Assembly (NCBI RefSeq): GCF_030817355.1
Contig: NZ_JAUSZH010000001.1
Coordinates: 1,736,001-1,800,000 of the forward strand
Direction: 5' to 3'
Source: Streptomyces sp. V1I1
Lineage (GTDB): Bacteria > Actinomycetota > Actinomycetes > Streptomycetales > Streptomycetaceae
Length of the DNA stretch: 64,000 nucleotides
Part shown: one piece after another, positions 5,693 through 40,611 of the stretch
How the letters are laid out: each line of letters starts with the position of its first letter
Position numbering within the stretch: the first letter of the stretch is position 1
Notes under the pieces: generated by a model
Databases searched by the model: none
Seen by the model: only the letters and a program-made list of their open reading frames with translations
Told to the model about the DNA's origin: nothing
Translations under genes and position numbers: made by a program

Positions 5693-7813
5693 ATGCAGGT
5701 CTGGCCGGGACAGGCGTATCCCCTCGGTGCCACGTACGACGGCGCCGGCACCAACTTCGCGGTGTACTCCGAAGCCGCCCGACGCATTGAGCTGTGCCTG
5801 TTGCACGACGACGGCTCCGAGACCGCGGTGGAGCTCCGCGAGACCGACGCGTTCGTACGGCACGCGTATCTGCCGGGCGTGATGCCGGGTCAGCGGTACG
5901 GATTCAGGGTCCACGGTCCGTACGCGCCCGAGCGCGGGCAGCGCTGCAACTCCGCGAAGCTGCTCCTCGATCCGTACGCACGTGCGATCAGCGGCAGCAT
6001 CGACTGGGGCGAGACCGTGTACGGCTACCACTTCGGCAAGCCGGACTCCCGCAACGACCTCGACTCGGCGCCGCACACGATGACATCGGTCGTGGTCAAC
6101 CCGTACTTCGACTGGGGCGACGACCGGCCGCCGCGTATCGACTACCACCGGACGGTGATCTACGAGGCCCATGTGAAGGGCCTCACGATGCTGCATCCGG
6201 AGCTGCCGCCGGAGCTGCGCGGTACGTACGCCGGGCTCGCGCATCCCGCGGTGATCTCGCATCTGACGGAACTGGGCGTCACGACGCTCGAATTGATGCC
6301 GGTGCACCAGTTCGTCAACGACCACCGGCTGGTGGACGCGAAGCTGAACAACTACTGGGGCTACAACACCATCGGGTTCTTCGCGCCGCACAACGCCTAC
6401 GCCTCCTGGGGCGACCGGGGCGAGCAGGTGCTGGAGTTCAAGCAGGCGGTGCGGGCGCTGCACCAGGCGGGCATCGAGGTCATCCTCGACGTCGTCTACA
6501 ACCACACTGCGGAGGGCAATCACCTCGGCCCCACCCTCTCCTTCCGGGGCCTGGACAACGCCTCGTACTACCGGCTGTCCGACGATCCGCGCTACTACAC
6601 CGACACGACGGGGACCGGAAATTCGCTGCTGATGCGCAGCCCCCATGTGCTCCAGCTGATCATGGACTCGCTGCGCTACTGGGTGACCGAGATGCATGTC
6701 GACGGCTTCCGCTTCGACCTCGCGGCGACGCTGGCCCGGCAGTTCCACGAGGTGGACCGGCTGTCGTCGTTCTTCGACCTGGTGCAGCAGGATCCGGTGG
6801 TCAGCCAGGTGAAGCTGATCGCCGAGCCGTGGGACGTGGGCGAGGGCGGCTATCAGGTGGGGAACTTCCCGCCGCTGTGGACCGAGTGGAACGGCATGTA
6901 CCGGGACTGTGTACGGGACCTGTGGCGGGGCGAGCCGCGGACACTGGCGGAGTTCGCCTCCCGGCTGACGGGCTCGTCCGATCTCTACCAGGACGACGGG
7001 CGGCGGCCGCTGGCCTCCATCAACTTCACGACCTGCCACGACGGGTTCACCCTGCACGATCTGGTCTCGTACAACGAGAAGCGCAACGAGGCGAACGGCG
7101 AGGGCAACCGCGACGGCGAGAGCCACAACCGGTCGTGGAACTGCGGGGTCGAGGGCGATACGAACGACCCCGAGGTGCTGGATCTGCGCGAGCGGCAGAT
7201 GCGCAACTTCATCGCGACGCTGATGCTCTCGCAGGGTGTGCCGATGCTCAGCCACGGCGACGAGTTCGCGCGTACGCAGGGCGGCAACAACAACGCGTAC
7301 TGCCAGGACAACGAGGTTTCCTGGGTGCGCTGGCCGGAGCCAGGCACGGACCAGGACGGCACGCTGCTGGCCTTCACCCGGGCGATGGTGTGGCTGCGGC
7401 GGGACCATCCGGTGTTCCGGCGGCGCAGGTTCTTCCACGGGCGGCCGGTGGAGGGGACGCACGACGAGCTGTCCGACATCGCGTGGTTCACCCCCGAGGG
7501 CGAGGAGATGGTCCAGCGGGACTGGCAGGCGGTGCATGCGAAGGCGCTGTCGGTGTTCCTGAACGGCCACGCGATCTCGGAGCCGGGACCGCGCGGCGAG
7601 CGGATCGCCGACGACTCGTTCCTGCTGATGTTCAACGCGAGCGCCGAGGATCTGGACTTCGCGGTGCCGGTGAACCACGGAAGGCAGTGGCAGGTGGTCG
7701 TGGACACGGCACGCAAGGAGGGAGTCCCGCCGGGCGAGGGCCCGAAGGTGGCGGCCGGGGAGCGGGTGCGGCTGGTGGGGCGGAGCCTGACGGTGCTGCG
7801 GCGGCCCGCGTAG
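5693..7813 (+). CDS. glgX: Glycogen debranching enzyme GlgX
   Basis: This hydrolyses alpha-1,6 branches of limit-dextrin glycogen in the cytoplasm. It is 706 residues: an N-terminal CBM48 (YPLGATYDGAGTNFAVYSE) followed by a GH13 catalytic barrel. Conserved regions are DVVYNHTAEG (I), VDGFRFDLA with nucleophile D342 (II), LIAEPWDVG with acid E378 (III) and TCHDGFTLHD (IV). The motifs SYNEKRNEANGEGN and SHGDEFARTQGGNNNAYCQDN are characteristic of GlgX/TreX debranching enzymes. The ATG at 5693 was chosen because GGAAGAG lies eight bases upstream; the frame is open further 5'. The TreY gene follows 196 bp downstream on the same strand, so debranched maltodextrin can feed trehalose synthesis. Confidence 0.95.
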   Translation: MQVWPGQAYPLGATYDGAGTNFAVYSEAARRIELCLLHDDGSETAVELRETDAFVRHAYLPGVMPGQRYGFRVHGPYAPERGQRCNSAKLLLDPYARAISGSIDWGETVYGYHFGKPDSRNDLDSAPHTMTSVVVNPYFDWGDDRPPRIDYHRTVIYEAHVKGLTMLHPELPPELRGTYAGLAHPAVISHLTELGVTTLELMPVHQFVNDHRLVDAKLNNYWGYNTIGFFAPHNAYASWGDRGEQVLEFKQAVRALHQAGIEVILDVVYNHTAEGNHLGPTLSFRGLDNASYYRLSDDPRYYTDTTGTGNSLLMRSPHVLQLIMDSLRYWVTEMHVDGFRFDLAATLARQFHEVDRLSSFFDLVQQDPVVSQVKLIAEPWDVGEGGYQVGNFPPLWTEWNGMYRDCVRDLWRGEPRTLAEFASRLTGSSDLYQDDGRRPLASINFTTCHDGFTLHDLVSYNEKRNEANGEGNRDGESHNRSWNCGVEGDTNDPEVLDLRERQMRNFIATLMLSQGVPMLSHGDEFARTQGGNNNAYCQDNEVSWVRWPEPGTDQDGTLLAFTRAMVWLRRDHPVFRRRRFFHGRPVEGTHDELSDIAWFTPEGEEMVQRDWQAVHAKALSVFLNGHAISEPGPRGERIADDSFLLMFNASAEDLDFAVPVNHGRQWQVVVDTARKEGVPPGEGPKVAAGERVRLVGRSLTVLRRPA

Positions 7814-8009
7814 CCGCCGACGCCGCAAGGGCCGGCCGAGCCCGACGTCGTGGGCCGCCGGGCTCCGCGAGGGTGCTCGTCAGGGTGAGAGCCGGCGCTT
7901 CGCGGTAGGTGCGGACCATGAGGGGCAACGGGCGAACGTAGCCCGATCGGCCGATACCGGCGCATGGGCCGATGACACAGAAGCGCTCAAGGTGGGTACG
8001 TACGTTCGC

Positions 8010-10367
8010 ATGACGCCCACCGCCACATACCGGCTGCAGATCCAGCCGGACTTCCCGTTCTCGGCCGCCGCGGAAGCCGTGCCGTACCTCGCCGAGCTCG
8101 GCGTCTCGCATCTTCATCTGTCGCCGGTGCTCGAGGCGGTCCCCGGGTCGACGCACGGCTACGACGTCGTCGACCCCGCGCGGGTGCGGGAGGAGCTCGG
8201 CGGCGAGGCGGGCCTGCGGGAGCTGTCCCGTACGGCGCGCGATCACGGCCTCGGACTGGTCCTGGACATCGTCCCGAACCATATGGCGGCGGTGCCGCGC
8301 CACAACCGGGCCCTGTGGGAGGTGCTGCGCGAGGGTCCCCTGTCGCCGTACGCCCGCTGGTTCGACATCGACTGGGAGGCGGGCGGCGGGAAGGTGCTGC
8401 TGCCGGTGCTCGCGGGCCGCATCGGGGACGAGCTGGGCGCGATGCGGGTCGAGGGGGACGTGCTGCACTACGGCGAGCAGCGCTTCCCGCTGCGCGAGTC
8501 CACCGCGAAGCTGCCGCTGCCCGAGCTGCTGGACGCGCAGTGGTACCGGCTGGGCTGGTGGCGGCTTGCCCGTACCGAGCTCAACTACCGGCGGTTCTTC
8601 ACCATTTCGGATCTGATCGGGGTACGGGTGGAGGACCCGGAGGTCTTCGACGCCACCCACGGAAAGATCATTGAACTGGTGCGGGACGGGGTCGTCGACG
8701 GCCTGCGCATCGACCACCCGGACGGGCTCGCCGACCCCGAGGCGTATCTGCGGCGGCTCGACGAGGCGACGGGCGGGGCATGCTGGACGGTCGTCGAGAA
8801 GATCCTCACCGGGGACGAGCGCCTGCCGGCCGACTGGCCGGTTGCGGGGACGACGGGGTACGACGCGCTGCGGCAGGTGGACGGGCTGTTCACCGATCCG
8901 GCGGGCGCGGCGGAACTTGTCGGTCAGTACCGGGAGTTCGCGGGCCCGGCGAGTGACCGTGGCGGCTACTGGGAGGCGACGGCGCGCCGCGCCGCGTACA
9001 AGGTGGTCACGCATGAGCTGGCCGCCGAGACCGCGGCGCTTACCCGCCTGGCGGAGCGGATCTGCGCGGCGGATCCCGCGCTGCGCGACCACGCCCCCTG
9101 GGCGCTGCGGGTGGCGGTCCGCGAGCTGCTGGTGCGGGTGCCCGTCTACCGCCCGTACCGCATCGGCGGCGAGGAGGCGCTGCCGGTGGAGGCGGCGGCC
9201 GCGGCGAAGGGGGCCTTCACGGTGGCCGAGGAGGCCGCGGCCGTCGACGTGGTGCGGGACCTGGCGCTCGGGCGGCTCGGCGAGGGGCCCGACCACGCGG
9301 CGTTCCGTGCGCGCTTCGCCCAGACGTCGTCCGCGCTGCGCGCCAAGTCCGTTGAGGACACGGCATTTTACCGCTACGCGCCGCTGATCTCGGCGAACGA
9401 GGTGGGCGGGGACCCGGGGCGGCCGGCGGTGGATCCCGAGGACTTCCATGCGTACTGCGCACGGCTCGCGCGCGACTGGCCCGCCACCGGCACCGTGCTG
9501 ACCACGCACGACACCAAACGCAGCGCGGATGTACGGGCCAGGATCGCGGTGCTTTCCGAGTGCCCCGAACGCTGGGCCGACTTCCTGCGGCGCATCACGG
9601 AAGAGGCGACCCGCCTCGAGGGCGGCCGCGCGCCCGATCCGCATCTGGCGTGGGTGACCTGGCAGACCGCTGTCGGGTTCGGCATCCCGAACCACGACAG
9701 GCTGGAGACGGCACTGCTGAAGGCCGTGCGGGAAGCGGGGCTGCACACCAGCTGGACGGAGCCGGACCAGGCGTACGAGCGAGCAGTCACCGCGTTCGTG
9801 GACGCGGGGCCGGCGGGCCCGCCGCTGTACTCGGCTGCGCTCTTCGCCCGCGAGCTGGATCCGTATGTACGCGCCAACGCGCTGGGCGCGGCGCTGGTGC
9901 AGCTGACGATGCCGGGGGTGCCTGATGTGTACCAGGGCACGGAGCGCCAGTACTTGGCCCTGGTGGACCCGGACAACCGTGGGCCCTTCCGCCAGGGCCC
10001 GCCGGACGAGAAGACGGCGGTCACGCAGGCGGCGCTGCGGCTTCGGCGGGAGCGGCCGGAGGTCTTCGGCGAGTCGGGGACATACACACCGCTGACCGCG
10101 AGCGGCCCCGCGGCCGGCCACTGCCTGGCGTTCTGCCGCACGGGCGAGGTGGTCACGGCGGTCACCCGGCTGTCGCTGCGACTGTCGGAGACAGGCGGCT
10201 GGGCGGGTACGGAGCTGACGCTGCCGGGGGGCAGATGGGCGGATCTGCTCGCGCCGGAACGGGAGTTCGGGGGCGGGCCTGTGCCGGTGGCAGAACTGTT
10301 CGCGGACCGCCCGGTGGCGCTGCTGAGCCGCGCGGCGGTACGGGAGGGGTCGGCGGCGAGCGAGTGA
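8010..10367 (+). CDS. treY: Malto-oligosyltrehalose synthase TreY
   Basis: This converts the reducing-end alpha-1,4 bond of maltodextrins to an alpha,alpha-1,1 trehalosyl end, the first step of the TreY-TreZ pathway. It is 785 residues in the GH13 family. Visible motifs are HLSPVLEAVPGSTHGYDVVD, LVLDIVPNHMA, DGLRIDHPDGLADP with nucleophile D235, WTVVEKIL with acid E263, and SVEDTAFYRYAPL and LTTHDTKRSADVRAR, which are specific to TreY. I placed the start at ATG 8010 (MTPTATYRLQ, the usual N-terminus); a GTG at 7992 is in frame. The partner hydrolase TreZ is 4.7 kb downstream with unrelated genes between. Confidence 0.95.
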   Translation: MTPTATYRLQIQPDFPFSAAAEAVPYLAELGVSHLHLSPVLEAVPGSTHGYDVVDPARVREELGGEAGLRELSRTARDHGLGLVLDIVPNHMAAVPRHNRALWEVLREGPLSPYARWFDIDWEAGGGKVLLPVLAGRIGDELGAMRVEGDVLHYGEQRFPLRESTAKLPLPELLDAQWYRLGWWRLARTELNYRRFFTISDLIGVRVEDPEVFDATHGKIIELVRDGVVDGLRIDHPDGLADPEAYLRRLDEATGGACWTVVEKILTGDERLPADWPVAGTTGYDALRQVDGLFTDPAGAAELVGQYREFAGPASDRGGYWEATARRAAYKVVTHELAAETAALTRLAERICAADPALRDHAPWALRVAVRELLVRVPVYRPYRIGGEEALPVEAAAAAKGAFTVAEEAAAVDVVRDLALGRLGEGPDHAAFRARFAQTSSALRAKSVEDTAFYRYAPLISANEVGGDPGRPAVDPEDFHAYCARLARDWPATGTVLTTHDTKRSADVRARIAVLSECPERWADFLRRITEEATRLEGGRAPDPHLAWVTWQTAVGFGIPNHDRLETALLKAVREAGLHTSWTEPDQAYERAVTAFVDAGPAGPPLYSAALFARELDPYVRANALGAALVQLTMPGVPDVYQGTERQYLALVDPDNRGPFRQGPPDEKTAVTQAALRLRRERPEVFGESGTYTPLTASGPAAGHCLAFCRTGEVVTAVTRLSLRLSETGGWAGTELTLPGGRWADLLAPEREFGGGPVPVAELFADRPVALLSRAAVREGSAASE

Positions 10368-35421: not shown

Positions 35422-35525
35422 ACACAGCGGGCCCGCCGTACGTACCTCTCAATACCGCCAAGTAGGTTGAGCGCTGATTTGCTCGGCGGTTGATTGCCGA
35501 GAGACTCATCGGTTCAGGAGGCACT

Positions 35526-36293
35526 GTGTTGCGGCGCATCAACGGGACGGCTCTCATCATCGCGGCTCTGGTCGCCACGGTAGGCGCGCTCGCGTTCCCC
35601 GTGTGGTCGTACGCGGACCGTTCCGGCACGGGTCCGGACAATCTCAACGCCTCGAGCGTGGCGACGCAGTGGGGACCGCTGTCCGCAACGGACCGCGACT
35701 TTCTGGTGAAGGTCCGGCTGGCCGGGCTCTGGGAGCTGCCCGCGGGACAGCAGGCGATCGAGCGCGCGCCCACGAAGGCGATCAAGGACGCGGGCGACCA
35801 TCTCGTCGTCGGGCACACCGATCTGGACAAGCGGGCGCGCGATGTGGCCGCCAAGCTGGGCGTCGAGCTGCCGAACCAGCCGACGGAGCAGCAGCAGGCA
35901 TGGCTGCGGGAGCTGTCGGCGGCGAGCGGCCAGGACTACGAGAGGAAGTTCGCGAACCTGCTGCGCAATGCGCACGGCAAGGTCTTCTCGCTGGTCGCCC
36001 AGGTCCGGCACACCACCAGGAACACGCTGATACGCCAGCTGGCGACGGACGCGAACCAGACGGTGCTCGACCACATCACCATGCTGGAGTCGACCGGGAT
36101 GGTCGACTTCGACTCCATCGCGAACGAAGCCGCGGGCGGGGCGACGGCCAGCCCGACCGGTCCGCCGCCGCCGAACGGCAACCTGCCGCCGCAGCCGGCG
36201 CCGGCGTCGCCGTCCGGGAACGACCAGTCCTTCACCTCGCGGCCGTCCACGCAGCCGGGGCCACCGACAGCGATCAACACCAACCGTCCGTAA
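35526..36293 (+). CDS. DUF4142 secreted protein (copy A)
   Basis: A 255-residue exported protein. The N-terminal hydrophobic segment GTALIIAALVATVGALAFPVW acts as a signal or membrane anchor. The helical DUF4142 domain spans roughly residues 45-200: WGPLSATDRDFLVKVRLAGLWELPAGQQ, GHTDLDKRARDVAAKLGVELP, and LATDANQTVLDHITMLESTG. A Pro-rich C-terminus follows. AGGAGG precedes it. Both GTG 35526 and TTG 35529 are possible, and alignment with the second copy at 39033 favours the TTG. A DUF692 gene follows 150 bp downstream. Confidence 0.83.
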   Translation: MLRRINGTALIIAALVATVGALAFPVWSYADRSGTGPDNLNASSVATQWGPLSATDRDFLVKVRLAGLWELPAGQQAIERAPTKAIKDAGDHLVVGHTDLDKRARDVAAKLGVELPNQPTEQQQAWLRELSAASGQDYERKFANLLRNAHGKVFSLVAQVRHTTRNTLIRQLATDANQTVLDHITMLESTGMVDFDSIANEAAGGATASPTGPPPPNGNLPPQPAPASPSGNDQSFTSRPSTQPGPPTAINTNRP

Positions 36294-36443: not shown

Positions 36444-37748
36444 ATGGAACTCGGTATCGGCATCGGCTGGCGCCCGGAGATCGCCGACGCGGTGGAGGAG
36501 CTGCCAGGCGTCGACTGGGTCGAGGTCGTCGCGGAGAACATCTGCCCGGGCCATCTGCCCGCCGCGCTGACCCGGCTGCGCTCGCGCGGCACGCGGATCG
36601 TCCCGCACGGCGTCTCACTGGGCCTGGGCGGCGCGGACCGCCCCTCCGCACACCGGCTCGCGGACCTGGCCGAGCGGGCGACGGCACTGGGCGCGCCCCT
36701 GGTCACCGAACACATCGCGTTCGTACGGGCCGGAGGCGTGCTCACCGCGTCCCCGCAGCTGGAGGCGGGCCACTTGCTGCCCGTGCCGCGCACCTGGGAC
36801 GCGCTCAAGGTGCTCTGCGAGAACGTCCGCATCGCACAGGACTCCCTGCCGGTGCCGCTGGCACTGGAGAACATCGCGGCGCTGATCTCCTGGCCCGGTG
36901 AGGAGCTCACGGAGGGCCAGTTCCTGGCGGAGCTGGTCGAGCGGACGGGCGTGGGCCTGCTGATCGACGTGGCCAACCTCCACACGAACCACGTCAACCG
37001 CGGCGAGAACCCGGCGACTGCGCTCGACGGACTCCCGGTCGAGGCGATCGCCTACGTCCACGTGGCGGGCGGCACCGAACGCGACGGCATCTGGCACGAC
37101 ACCCACTCGCACCCGGTCACCGAGCCGATCCTGGACATCCTGTCGGACCTGCGGGCACGAGTGTCCCCGCCCGGGGTGCTGCTGGAGCGCGACGACGACT
37201 TCCCGCCCAAGGAGGAGCTGGCGGCGGAGTTGACGACGATCCGCGGGAGGGTAGCGGGGCAGCCCGCCGCGCCGCGCGGCGAAGCCCGAGCGCGAGGGGG
37301 TCTGGGGGCCCGCCCGAAGGTTGTGGAGAGCAGCTCACCCGACGCCCGCGAGCGCGTCGCGCTCTCACAGGCCGCCCTTCTCTCCGCTCTCGTCGCCGGC
37401 ACCCCCGCCCCCGAAGGCTTCGACTCACAGCGCCTCCGGGTCCAGAGCCGCGCCCTCGCCGCCAAGCGTGCCGACGTCGTCGCCAAGGTCGCCCCAGAGC
37501 TGCCCGAGATCCTCGGCGAGGGATACCGCGCCGCGTTTCTCGCGTACGCCAAGGGCCGCCCCATGTGCGACGGTTACCGCCGCGACGCACTCCACTTCGC
37601 CGAGCAGCTGCTCGTCTCCGGACGTCCCGATGACGAGAACGCCCGCCGCCTGCTCACCCGTTGGTGGGAGGAGCGCGCCGGAGCCCATCCGCCGCGCCGG
37701 GGCACCCGGCTCGTCCGTGCGGCCCGCGCCGCGCTCGTCAGGCGGTGA
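36444..37748 (+). CDS. DUF692/MNIO-family iron enzyme fused to a helical partner-like domain
   Basis: A 434-residue protein. Residues 1-275 form a DUF692 TIM barrel (multinuclear non-heme iron oxidase, MbnB/TglH class). Putative metal and active-site residues are E31-N32, H55, D175, N178, H180, H206, H218/D219/H221/H223 and E248. Residues 295-434 are helical ([36 protein letters not shown]) and resemble the DUF2063-type partner proteins that normally accompany these enzymes as separate chains. Known family members modify Cys in peptide substrates. A GGAGGGGGA ribosome-binding site precedes the ATG. It overlaps or abuts the TIGR04222 membrane protein gene whose Cys-rich tail is the obvious candidate substrate. 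Confidence 0.85.
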
Positions 37749-37753
37749 GCGGC

Positions 37754-38731
37754 ATGGTCCTTCTCGCCGTGTTCGTGTATCTCGCCATCGGCGCATCGTC
37801 CGCCGCGCTGATCGTCCGGGCCTCCGCGTCCCGGACCCGCCACCCGGTCGGCGGCGGACAGATCCAGCACGTCTACGAGGCTGCCTTCCTCAGCGGCGGC
37901 CCCGCCCGTGTCGCCGACGCGGCACTCGCCGCCATGCACGCGGACGGCCGGCTGGTCATCGGCGGCCCGGGCATCGTCTCCGTACGGCAGGCCCTCGCCC
38001 ATGACCCCGTGGAGCGCGCGGTGTTCGAGCAGCTGGCCGCCGCCCCGACCGGCGCGCTGCACACTTTGCGCCTCGCGGTGATGCGCCACCCCGCCGTGCA
38101 GGAGATCGGCGACGGCCTCGCCGCCCGCGGGCTGATGACGCCGCCCGGACAGAACCGGGGGCTGACGGTGTGGGGCTACACCCAGGGCTTCCTCTGCGTC
38201 ATGGGGCTGCCCCTCTCCTTCGGCCTGACCATCTTCAGCTTCATCCAGAACGACGGACCGGTGGATTTCGGCCCGCCGTTCATCCTGATGGTTCTGCCGG
38301 CCCTGATCACGGGCATCGTGATCGGGTTCATGATGGGGGGCCGCGCCCGGCGGCGGATCACGACGGCCGGGCGGCACGCCCTGCGCTCATACCTGGTGCA
38401 GTACGCCCAGGTGTACTCGGCGGCCCATCTCGTCGCGGTGCACGGTCTGCGCGGAGTGCCGGATCCCGCGCTCCAGGCGCAGCTGACCACGGCGGCACGG
38501 ATCCCGGCGGGCCGCACGGACGGCTACTCGCCGTCGTACACGGACTCCGCGGCCGTGTGGTGCGCCGGGTCGAGCCCGGGATCCGGTTGTGGCAGCTCCA
38601 GCTGCGGCGCGAGCGGGGGATCGAGCTGCGGTGGTTCGTCCGGCGGCTCCAGCTGCGGCGGCTCGTCAGGAGGTTCCAGCTGCGGCGGATCCTCGGGCGG
38701 GTCCAGTTGCGGAGGGGGCAGCAGCTCCTGA
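37754..38731 (+). CDS. TIGR04222-type membrane protein with Cys/Gly/Ser repeat tail
   Basis: A 325-residue membrane protein. There is an N-terminal segment MVLLAVFVYLAIGASSAALI, a cytoplasmic domain (HVYEAAFLSGGPARVADAAL, the TIGR04222 signature) and two more membrane segments around residues 140-195. From residue 270 to the end it is nearly pure Cys, Gly and Ser, with four near-identical repeats of SSCGGSSGG and seven Cys in total. ATG 37754 aligns with the second copy at 39853. A GTG at 37745 overlaps the DUF692 stop as GTGA, so the two are translationally coupled. The tail looks like a modification target (inference). Confidence 0.82.
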   Translation: MVLLAVFVYLAIGASSAALIVRASASRTRHPVGGGQIQHVYEAAFLSGGPARVADAALAAMHADGRLVIGGPGIVSVRQALAHDPVERAVFEQLAAAPTGALHTLRLAVMRHPAVQEIGDGLAARGLMTPPGQNRGLTVWGYTQGFLCVMGLPLSFGLTIFSFIQNDGPVDFGPPFILMVLPALITGIVIGFMMGGRARRRITTAGRHALRSYLVQYAQVYSAAHLVAVHGLRGVPDPALQAQLTTAARIPAGRTDGYSPSYTDSAAVWCAGSSPGSGCGSSSCGASGGSSCGGSSGGSSCGGSSGGSSCGGSSGGSSCGGGSSS

Positions 38732-39032: not shown

Positions 39033-39788
39033 ATGCGTTCCCTCACCGGCACCGGCCTGGTCGTCGTCGCCCTGACGGCGACCATCGCCGCGATCCTCTT
39101 CCCCATCTGGTCGTACGACGACCGCTCAGGCACCGGCCGGGCCAACCTCAGAGCCGGTTCCGTCAGCACACCCTGGGGCCCGCTCTCCGCCGCCGACCGG
39201 GACTTCGTCGTCCGCGTCAGACTCGCCGGTCTGTGGGAGCTCCCCGCCGGCCAGCAGGCCGTCGGCCGCGCCCCCACCGTCGCGGTGAAGGTGGCCGGCG
39301 AGCATCTCGTCGAGGGCCACACCTATCTCGACGCCCGCGTCCGCGAGGTCGCGGCCCGGCTCAACATGGAGCTGCCGAACCAGCCGACCGCCCAACAGCA
39401 GGGCTGGCTCAAGGAGTTCACCGAGGCACGCGGCCAGGAGTACGAGACCAAGTTCGCCAATATCCTGCGCCGTGCCCACGGCAAGGTCTTCTCCCTCGTC
39501 GCCGACATCCGCAACAGCACCCGCAACACCCTGGTGCGCGAACTCGCCAACGACGCCAACACCACCGTCCTGGACCACATCAAGGTCCTGGAGGCGACCG
39601 GCCTGGTCGACTTCGACGCCATCGCCGACGGCTCCGCCGCCACCGCGACGGCAAGTCCCACAGGACCGCCGCCGCCCGCCCCGGGCGCTACACCGCCGCC
39701 AGCAGACCCCGTCACCCCCACCCCGGCCCGGTCGTTCCCGCTGCCGCCCGCGGCCTCCCGCCCCCGATCCGACGTCACGGACCGATAA
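39033..39788 (+). CDS. DUF4142 secreted protein (copy B)
   Basis: A 251-residue paralogue of the protein at 35526. The N-terminal membrane/signal segment GTGLVVVALTATIAAILFPIW is followed by the same DUF4142 domain: WGPLSAADRDFVVRVRLAGLWELPAGQQ, PNQPTAQQQGWLKEF, KFANILRRAHGKVFSLVADIRNSTRNTLV (quoted in parts) and a Pro-rich end. AGGAGG lies five bases before the ATG. It is the first gene after the MITE-like element, and the TIGR04222 copy B follows 64 bp downstream. Confidence 0.85.
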   Translation: MRSLTGTGLVVVALTATIAAILFPIWSYDDRSGTGRANLRAGSVSTPWGPLSAADRDFVVRVRLAGLWELPAGQQAVGRAPTVAVKVAGEHLVEGHTYLDARVREVAARLNMELPNQPTAQQQGWLKEFTEARGQEYETKFANILRRAHGKVFSLVADIRNSTRNTLVRELANDANTTVLDHIKVLEATGLVDFDAIADGSAATATASPTGPPPPAPGATPPPADPVTPTPARSFPLPPAASRPRSDVTDR

Positions 39789-39852: not shown

Positions 39853-40611
39853 ATGTTCTGGGTCCTATTCCTGCTGGTGGCCTGGGCCGCGGCGGGCATC
39901 AGCTGCGCCCGGCTCTGCATCGCCGCCGTCGAAGCCGCTCGCCCCGCCCCCGAAGGAGCAAGCCGGAAAGGGCAGTTGAGCCTGTACGAGGCCGCCTTCC
40001 TGGCCGGCGGCCCGCAACGGGTCGCAGAGCTCACGCTCGTCTCGATGCACCGCGGCCGCAGGCTGCTGCTCGCGCGCACCGGCTGGGCCACGGTCGTCGA
40101 CCCGGAGGGCGAGGACGACTTGGAGCGCTCGGTCATCGGCGCGATAGGACCCGCGGGCCAGGCGCGGATAGCCGCGGTGCGGGCCGCCGCATCCGCCGCC
40201 GACGCGGTTCGGGCCCTGGCCGACCCGCTCGTCAGCGCCGGCCTCGCCGTCCCGGACGCGGCCAGGTCGGGCGTCGCCGCCGCCGTGCGCGCCGTCCAGG
40301 GCGCGACCGCGCTCACCGTCGCGCTGGCGGCCGCCGCACTGCTGATGCTCCCTCAGGAGCAGGGCGCGAGAGCCCCGATCCTCGCCTGGTTCGCCCTCCC
40401 CCTCCTGCTCACCCTGGGCTGTCTGGCCATCGCACGGATCGAGGTACATCCGTACACCCGTTGGGCCTCGCCCGACGGCCAGCGTCTCCTCGGCACGCTC
40501 TCCCCGGGGGACACGCTCACCGCCGTCGCCGTGCGCGGCGTCGGCGCGCTCGACGATCCGGACCTGCGGGCGGCGCTGGCGAGCCGCCGCATGGCGCATC
40601 GGAGTCATTGA
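39853..40611 (+). CDS. TIGR04222-type membrane protein (copy B, no Cys tail)
   Basis: A 252-residue paralogue of the protein at 37754. It has an N-terminal membrane segment MFWVLFLLVAWAAAGISCA, the domain core LYEAAFLAGGPQRVAELTLVSMHRGRRLLL, two membrane segments (ALTVALAAAALLML, AWFALPLLLTLGCLAIA) and a short polar C-terminus. It lacks the Cys/Gly/Ser tail completely. Its pairing with DUF4142 copy B mirrors the A-copy module but without a DUF692 gene. Confidence 0.82.
   Translation: MFWVLFLLVAWAAAGISCARLCIAAVEAARPAPEGASRKGQLSLYEAAFLAGGPQRVAELTLVSMHRGRRLLLARTGWATVVDPEGEDDLERSVIGAIGPAGQARIAAVRAAASAADAVRALADPLVSAGLAVPDAARSGVAAAVRAVQGATALTVALAAAALLMLPQEQGARAPILAWFALPLLLTLGCLAIARIEVHPYTRWASPDGQRLLGTLSPGDTLTAVAVRGVGALDDPDLRAALASRRMAHRSH

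Follow-up and report, generated by a model that had tools for sequence, protein, structure and literature searches.

What does an MNIO (DUF692) enzyme do when its gene overlaps one for a membrane protein that ends in a Cys/Gly/Ser tail? The question is raised by the window analysed here, a stretch of 64,000 nucleotides from Streptomyces sp. V1I1. Our results suggest, with a probability of about 0.64, that the MNIO and a partner domain fused to it modify a cytoplasm-facing tail carried on exchangeable membrane anchors. The features of the locus are the following:

35490..36293, + strand: DUF4142 protein upstream of the MNIO, part of a wider Streptomyces locus (PF13628, E 2.6e-20)
36444..37268, + strand: TIM-barrel catalytic part of the MNIO (DUF692), residues 1-275
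37302..37748, + strand: helical C-terminal domain of the MNIO chain (residues 287-434), a homologue of stand-alone PME-type 2 / DUF2063-like partners
37745..38731, + strand: TIGR04222 membrane protein with the Cys tail, of 328 aa when started at the GTG (37745), with an alternative ATG at 37754 (TIGR04222.1, 153.4 bits against an NCBIfam cut-off of 43)
38555..38728, + strand: Cys/Gly/Ser tail of that protein, 58 residues with seven Cys, starting at the conserved Trp-Cys (W272-C273)
39033..39788, + strand: second DUF4142 protein, between both TIGR04222 genes (PF13628, E 7.6e-17)
39853..40611, + strand: second TIGR04222 protein, without a Cys tail and thus a built-in negative control (126.5 bits)

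The gene overlap previously claimed at 37745 is real: read directly, the MNIO and TIGR04222 ORFs share the GTGA at 37745-37748. Profile searches of the host genome gave one MNIO match and two TIGR04222 matches. The pair is flanked by the tail-less TIGR04222 gene (39853-40611) and the two DUF4142 genes. The nearest relatives of the locus, the best 80 of 542, are all from Streptomyces, and DUF4142 was present in 42 of these 80, in 34/65 with a Cys tail and 8/15 without.

The enzyme, 434 aa encoded by 36444-37748, matches PF05114 at E 9.4e-78 (261.5 bits; gathering threshold 25), and in a fold search it proved to be a TIM barrel resembling TglH and MbnB. All nine iron ligands of TglH are present (H55, H90, E142, D175, N178, H206, D219, H221 and E248). 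The close homologues have rarely lost any of them: the nine are kept together in 163 of 166 related MNIO, and they are also intact in the 28 checked MNIO loci from Streptomyces without a Cys-tailed ortholog. The best-scoring family models were BufB (180 bits) and HvfB (140 bits), both below their cut-offs of 310 and 360. Note that loci L107, L108 and L109 hold a distinct MNIO group (PF05114 E around 1e-110) with neither a TIGR04222 neighbour nor the C-terminal partner domain.

The original prediction gave the enzyme a C-terminal helical domain of its own, similar to the separate DUF2063-type partners of other MNIO. In support of this, the AlphaFold (AF2) model places helices at residues 299-412, with block pLDDT values of 80-96 over 301-410, and an hhalign comparison with DUF2063 partners gave E 8.7e-5 (probability 60, 75 columns) against E 0.36 for the control (A2). 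The DUF2063 side of this comparison consisted of seven plasmid-encoded partner proteins taken from annotated DUF692 operons; three were checked, and each matched DUF2063 with an E of 1e-16 or lower. Moreover, relatives carry the domain as a separate gene. Of 80 loci of the class searched with its profile, 36 have it as an ORF of its own, another 36 have it fused and 8 gave no match; it was fused to the MNIO in all 80 Streptomyces loci that were the best of 542, and the Streptomyces loci of the class set with a separate domain were L112 and L131. Seven switches between the fused and separate states fall on the best enzyme tree. In our reading, residues 287-434 are a putative partner of PME-type 2 that has become part of the enzyme chain.

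PF09836 itself recognised 2 of the 38 members of this domain family, with E 0.048 at best, and an NCBIfam scan of the 38 members matched four families, no partner family among them. The rows of the enzyme fold search, consulted for likeness to NGO1945 (3dee) or TglI, do not reach the C-terminal domain. Two candidate relatives were rejected: formylglycine-generating enzymes, with a best E of 1.1 in a PDB profile search, were judged a chance match, and the likeness to SDR oxidoreductases, seen in 3/38 members at E 3.2e-4, was judged compositional. Newer Pfam annotation places PF26136 on the MNIO family (120 of 6,826 proteins covered; a further search covered 120 of 945). This entry, which is not in the matches of the Pfam version scanned, presumably is the C-terminal domain.

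The neighbouring TIGR04222 protein is predicted to cross the membrane three times, around residues 5-23, 149-167 and 179-197, and the N-terminal segment resembles a retained anchor. A Pfam scan of this protein gave nothing at E up to 1, and DUF2282, the mark of Buf1, was therefore not matched; the best hit of a PDB fold search with its model had E 1.6. Its tail does contain the seven Cys that had been announced (C273, 282, 287, 295, 304, 313 and 322), and its length of 58 residues is close to the 56 or so first given. SSCGGSSGG, said to occur four times, is found three times exactly and once as the variant SSCGGGSSS. Read directly, the repeats use differing synonymous codons. The AF2 model leaves the tail disordered (pLDDT below 50 over 256-299, 306-321 and 323-326), and the Trp-Cys at its start is invariant in 57 Streptomyces relatives. 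We scored stop-to-stop ORFs of at least 60 aa as tailed when their last 60 residues held at least four Cys and at least 55% Gly, Ser and Cys. Among the 539 ORFs of the window only the TIGR04222 protein has such a tail, and the 22,710 ORFs of 226 loci, some of which overlap, gave 121, 108 of them on TIGR04222 proteins. The tail in the window is more than chance.

The tail also keeps company with the enzyme, in line with the coupling of the two in the original prediction. A Cys tail lies within 450 bp of the MNIO in 65 of the 80 Streptomyces loci that were the best of 542. Tail-less TIGR04222 proteins are not just as common beside the enzyme: the tail is present in 40/47 of those within 450 bp of an MNIO, compared to 14/62 of those elsewhere. 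In a class survey of 335 genomes, PF05114 was found in 79 and TIGR04222 above its cut-off in 88. The TIGR04222 loci of 82 genomes were examined, a set that leaves out G376, G393, G407, G484 and G616 among others as well as many sub-cut-off matches: 48 genomes were Cys-tailed, all 48 with an MNIO, and 34 were tail-less, 16 of them with one. Outside Streptomyces the enzyme was present in 38/38 tailed versus 2/19 tail-less genomes (Fisher 1.2e-12, kinship ignored); within Streptomyces the same survey showed no tail-MNIO signal, with the enzyme in 10/10 tailed and 14/15 tail-less genomes. A tree-aware test was not significant, with nine tail changes on the best TIGR04222 tree and four supported pairs, and because independent tail changes are so few the association is only suggestive. 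In several genomes the Cys-tailed gene lies apart from the MNIO (for example L168, L170, L172, L173 and L175). The tail-less relatives in L189, L190, L192 and L202 have a Gly/Asp-rich tail without Cys, and their genomes have no MNIO match.

Is the TIGR04222 protein then the only substrate? The enzyme was present in 114 of 121 Streptomyces genomes and a Cys-tailed ortholog in 53, each time together with the enzyme; the 53 are our own count at E 5e-19 or better, to which the weaker or partial matches in G652, G676, G635 and G645 may belong. In the 30 loci fetched for this ortholog set, the Cys tail was read in frame in 28. The ortholog is thus absent from 61 of the 114 MNIO-bearing genomes, a figure that may be somewhat high because a few of the weaker or partial matches are possibly orthologs. 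On the enzyme tree, 19 sampled tail-less rows form one clade (support 84) and the remainder are scattered. Therefore, the Cys-tailed TIGR04222 protein cannot be the only substrate: genomes without it must offer the enzyme something else to act on, or use it for a different function. Divergent TIGR04222-like proteins (those like L100) were rejected as a general answer, since 21/24 have 0-2 Cys in their last 60 residues and 3/24 have 3-5.

The persistence of the MNIO in these 61 genomes, 19 sampled rows of which amount to one clade, is what one would expect if the thiols of the tail simply bound metal or served in redox chemistry, unmodified, beside an enzyme that is its neighbour by locus history and acts elsewhere. 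Poly-Cys tails are able to bind metal in their unmodified form, and the association of tail and enzyme hangs on few independent changes. However, an MNIO in every one of the 48 tail-bearing genomes, and Gly-rich tails devoid of Cys in genomes without an MNIO match, speak against this explanation, which we consider unlikely.

A further point against an unmodified tail is that the anchor can be swapped while tail and MNIO remain paired. The same tail is found on small proteins with one membrane segment, encoded beside the MNIO in L135, L137, L138, L150, L152, L153 and L159, and one gene off in L157; the fetched stretch of these eight loci holds no TIGR04222 gene, and the loci occupy two places on the MNIO tree. 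The consensus of the small proteins is a membrane segment, an Arg-rich stretch, Ser-Trp-Trp-Ala and then SSCGGG repeats. Only the tail aligns between them and the TIGR04222 proteins, and in both kinds the Cys are mostly found as [S/G]-C-G with a modal spacing of six. A profile of the small proteins collected 103 proteins at E 0.01, mostly called "hypothetical" where named, with at least three tail Cys in 80. We consider them the leading candidates for the other substrates.

Small tail proteins also occur away from the MNIO or on other contigs. The search matched 44 of the 121 Streptomyces genomes at E 0.01; 30 loci were fetched and the proteins were verified by reading in at least 20 genomes, all 20 with an MNIO, which is not significant because 114/121 genomes have one. 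In a comparison of genomes with and without the enzyme, a search that missed two positives known from loci (G560 and G598), they were verified in 5/35 MNIO-positive versus 1/45 MNIO-negative genomes, the single negative genome, G626, having its protein at a contig edge. One profile match (P0342, E 8.5e-3) is labelled S. canus, a species whose two MNIO loci in our set, L058 and L065, have no TIGR04222 tail protein. Note that L287 carries, at 557-2118 on the minus strand, four small Cys/Gly/Ser-tailed membrane proteins in tandem, far from the MNIO gene of that genome.

These small proteins, encoded elsewhere, could even be the main substrate in Streptomyces, the TIGR04222 protein then coming second as a substrate or serving in assembly. 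Their occurrence in genomes both with and without the TIGR04222 ortholog, the tandem of four in L287, the 80/103 profile matches with several tail Cys and the S. canus protein fit this possibility. Their verification in only 20/121 genomes, at the sensitivity reached, and their weak association with the presence of the enzyme (5/35 versus 1/45) do not, and the odds seem to us tilted against it. A broader version of our preferred reading, that of a modified tail on exchangeable anchors, is held tentatively, at somewhat less than even odds: throughout the Actinobacteria, one cytosolic MNIO with its partner would modify a portable, cytoplasm-facing tail of Trp and poly-(Ser-Cys-Gly) on many unrelated anchors, among them TIGR04222 proteins, small proteins that cross the membrane once or twice and possibly further kinds. 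Some of these would be encoded in trans and in tandem, and what is recognised would be a tail code and not a precursor family.

On which side of the membrane does the tail lie? We compared Lys plus Arg around the last hydrophobic segment across 119 TIGR04222 proteins with a Cys tail, a set in which close relatives are numerous. Three hydrophobic segments were predicted in 91, four in 17, two in 8, one in 2 and five in 1, the comparison meaning little for the last three groups (8, 2 and 1 proteins). In 88 of the 91 three-segment proteins, the 25 residues after the last segment hold more Lys and Arg than the preceding loop (means 4.81 versus 0.51), and in the small proteins the residues after the segment exceed those before it in 35/35 (means 6.5 versus 0.2). 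Because both protein kinds show this positive-inside bias, the tail probably faces the cytoplasm, where the enzyme is. The original prediction had instead imagined a cell-surface structure, and the same bias argues against it.

The idea that the tail is modified and then exported, to become a periplasmic or surface chelator like the bufferins, has nevertheless been favoured elsewhere, since Antoine et al. (2025, PMC12452194) predict a periplasmic tail for selected TIGR04222 models, and 15 of the 17 four-segment proteins would point the same way if the fourth segment were real. We think, and this is a judgement, that the fourth segment is a false one following TM3. Moreover, that paper itself terms the proteins signal peptide-less, and together with the charge bias in both kinds of anchor this makes export quite improbable.

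Under the preferred reading of a cytoplasmic modified tail, a cytosolic MNIO would act together with its fused partner domain. The sequences themselves show the active-site residues, the fused partner-like domain, the tail, the gene overlap and the exchange of anchors. Recognition of the anchored protein may rely on the residues immediately preceding the tail, probably on the conserved Trp, and the tail Cys, in their [Ser/Gly]-Cys-Gly context, would be oxidised one by one on the cytoplasmic side to which the charge bias points. Our guess is that the product groups are most likely of the thiooxazole or oxazolone/thioamide type, as in the bufferins and oxazolins. The anchor is exchangeable, a TIGR04222 protein here and small single-pass proteins elsewhere, and, more speculatively, the likely end product would be a ligand or sensor for metal (copper), tethered to the membrane on its inner side.

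The pair is conserved and real, and its main idea is already known, so that the "possible new" system of the original prediction is not new at its core. Antoine et al. (PMC12452194) already proposed Cys-rich-tailed subsets of TIGR04222 as MNIO substrates, among more than 3,500 TIGR04222 proteins, mostly from Actinomycetota; PME-type 2 partners occur in at least 10% of their TIGR04222-MNIO clusters, and many clusters appear without a partner gene. The two families and the hypothesis are the same in both studies, and the side of the tail differs, periplasmic there and cytoplasmic here by charge bias. Within the portion of that paper available to us there is no description of the fused partner domain or of small anchors with the same tail, and among the papers listed in our literature search on TIGR04222 and DUF692 it was the one in which TIGR04222 came up, with nothing nearer. 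Within that scope, we met no earlier account of a partner fused to the enzyme, of a tail facing the cytoplasm or of one tail shared by unrelated anchors.

Other MNIO systems share some of these features. The bufferins and oxazolins also combine a BufB/HvfB-type MNIO, Cys-containing targets and a partner protein. In the bufferins, the precursor carries a Sec signal peptide and the partner is a DUF2063 protein (PME-type 1; PMC12452194); by contrast, the partner here is DUF2063-like but unmatched by the DUF2063 model, and the candidate substrate is a multi-pass membrane protein. In MovX, a Vibrio methanobactin-like system (PMC12452194), the MNIO chain likewise includes an additional domain, in that case a winged helix, which may replace the partner. 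TglHI and MbnBC resemble our system in fold, in the nine iron ligands of TglH and in pairing an enzyme with a partner, which is there a separate chain. Their precursors are small and soluble.

If our reading is correct, these MNIO act on anchored proteins inside the cell and not on small secreted peptides. The enzyme-fused partner domain may then account for the partner genes seemingly missing from some clusters, and the small proteins, mostly named "hypothetical", would become a testable set of substrates.

Several minor observations concern further proteins of these families. A survey of the phylum gave weak TIGR04222 matches within ORFs of about 500-1200 aa in many other Actinomycetota, which we take to be possibly DUF2207-type proteins. 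The adjamnio-V proteins, very small proteins encoded after MNIO genes (PMC12452194), might overlap with the small anchors. In L144, a pair of ORFs resembling each other, each about 440 aa long (6876-8234 and 8480-9790, minus strand), lies upstream of an MNIO gene and has no TIGR04222 match; one ends in GGCGGGGCGGGGGGCGGGGC and its companion in a Cys/Gly run that is shorter, and they are maybe a third kind of tail carrier. Finally, a small ORF in L136 (3052-3357), about 2 kb upstream of an MNIO ORF, ends in SSCGGCNGCMGCSM and resembles a classic small precursor.
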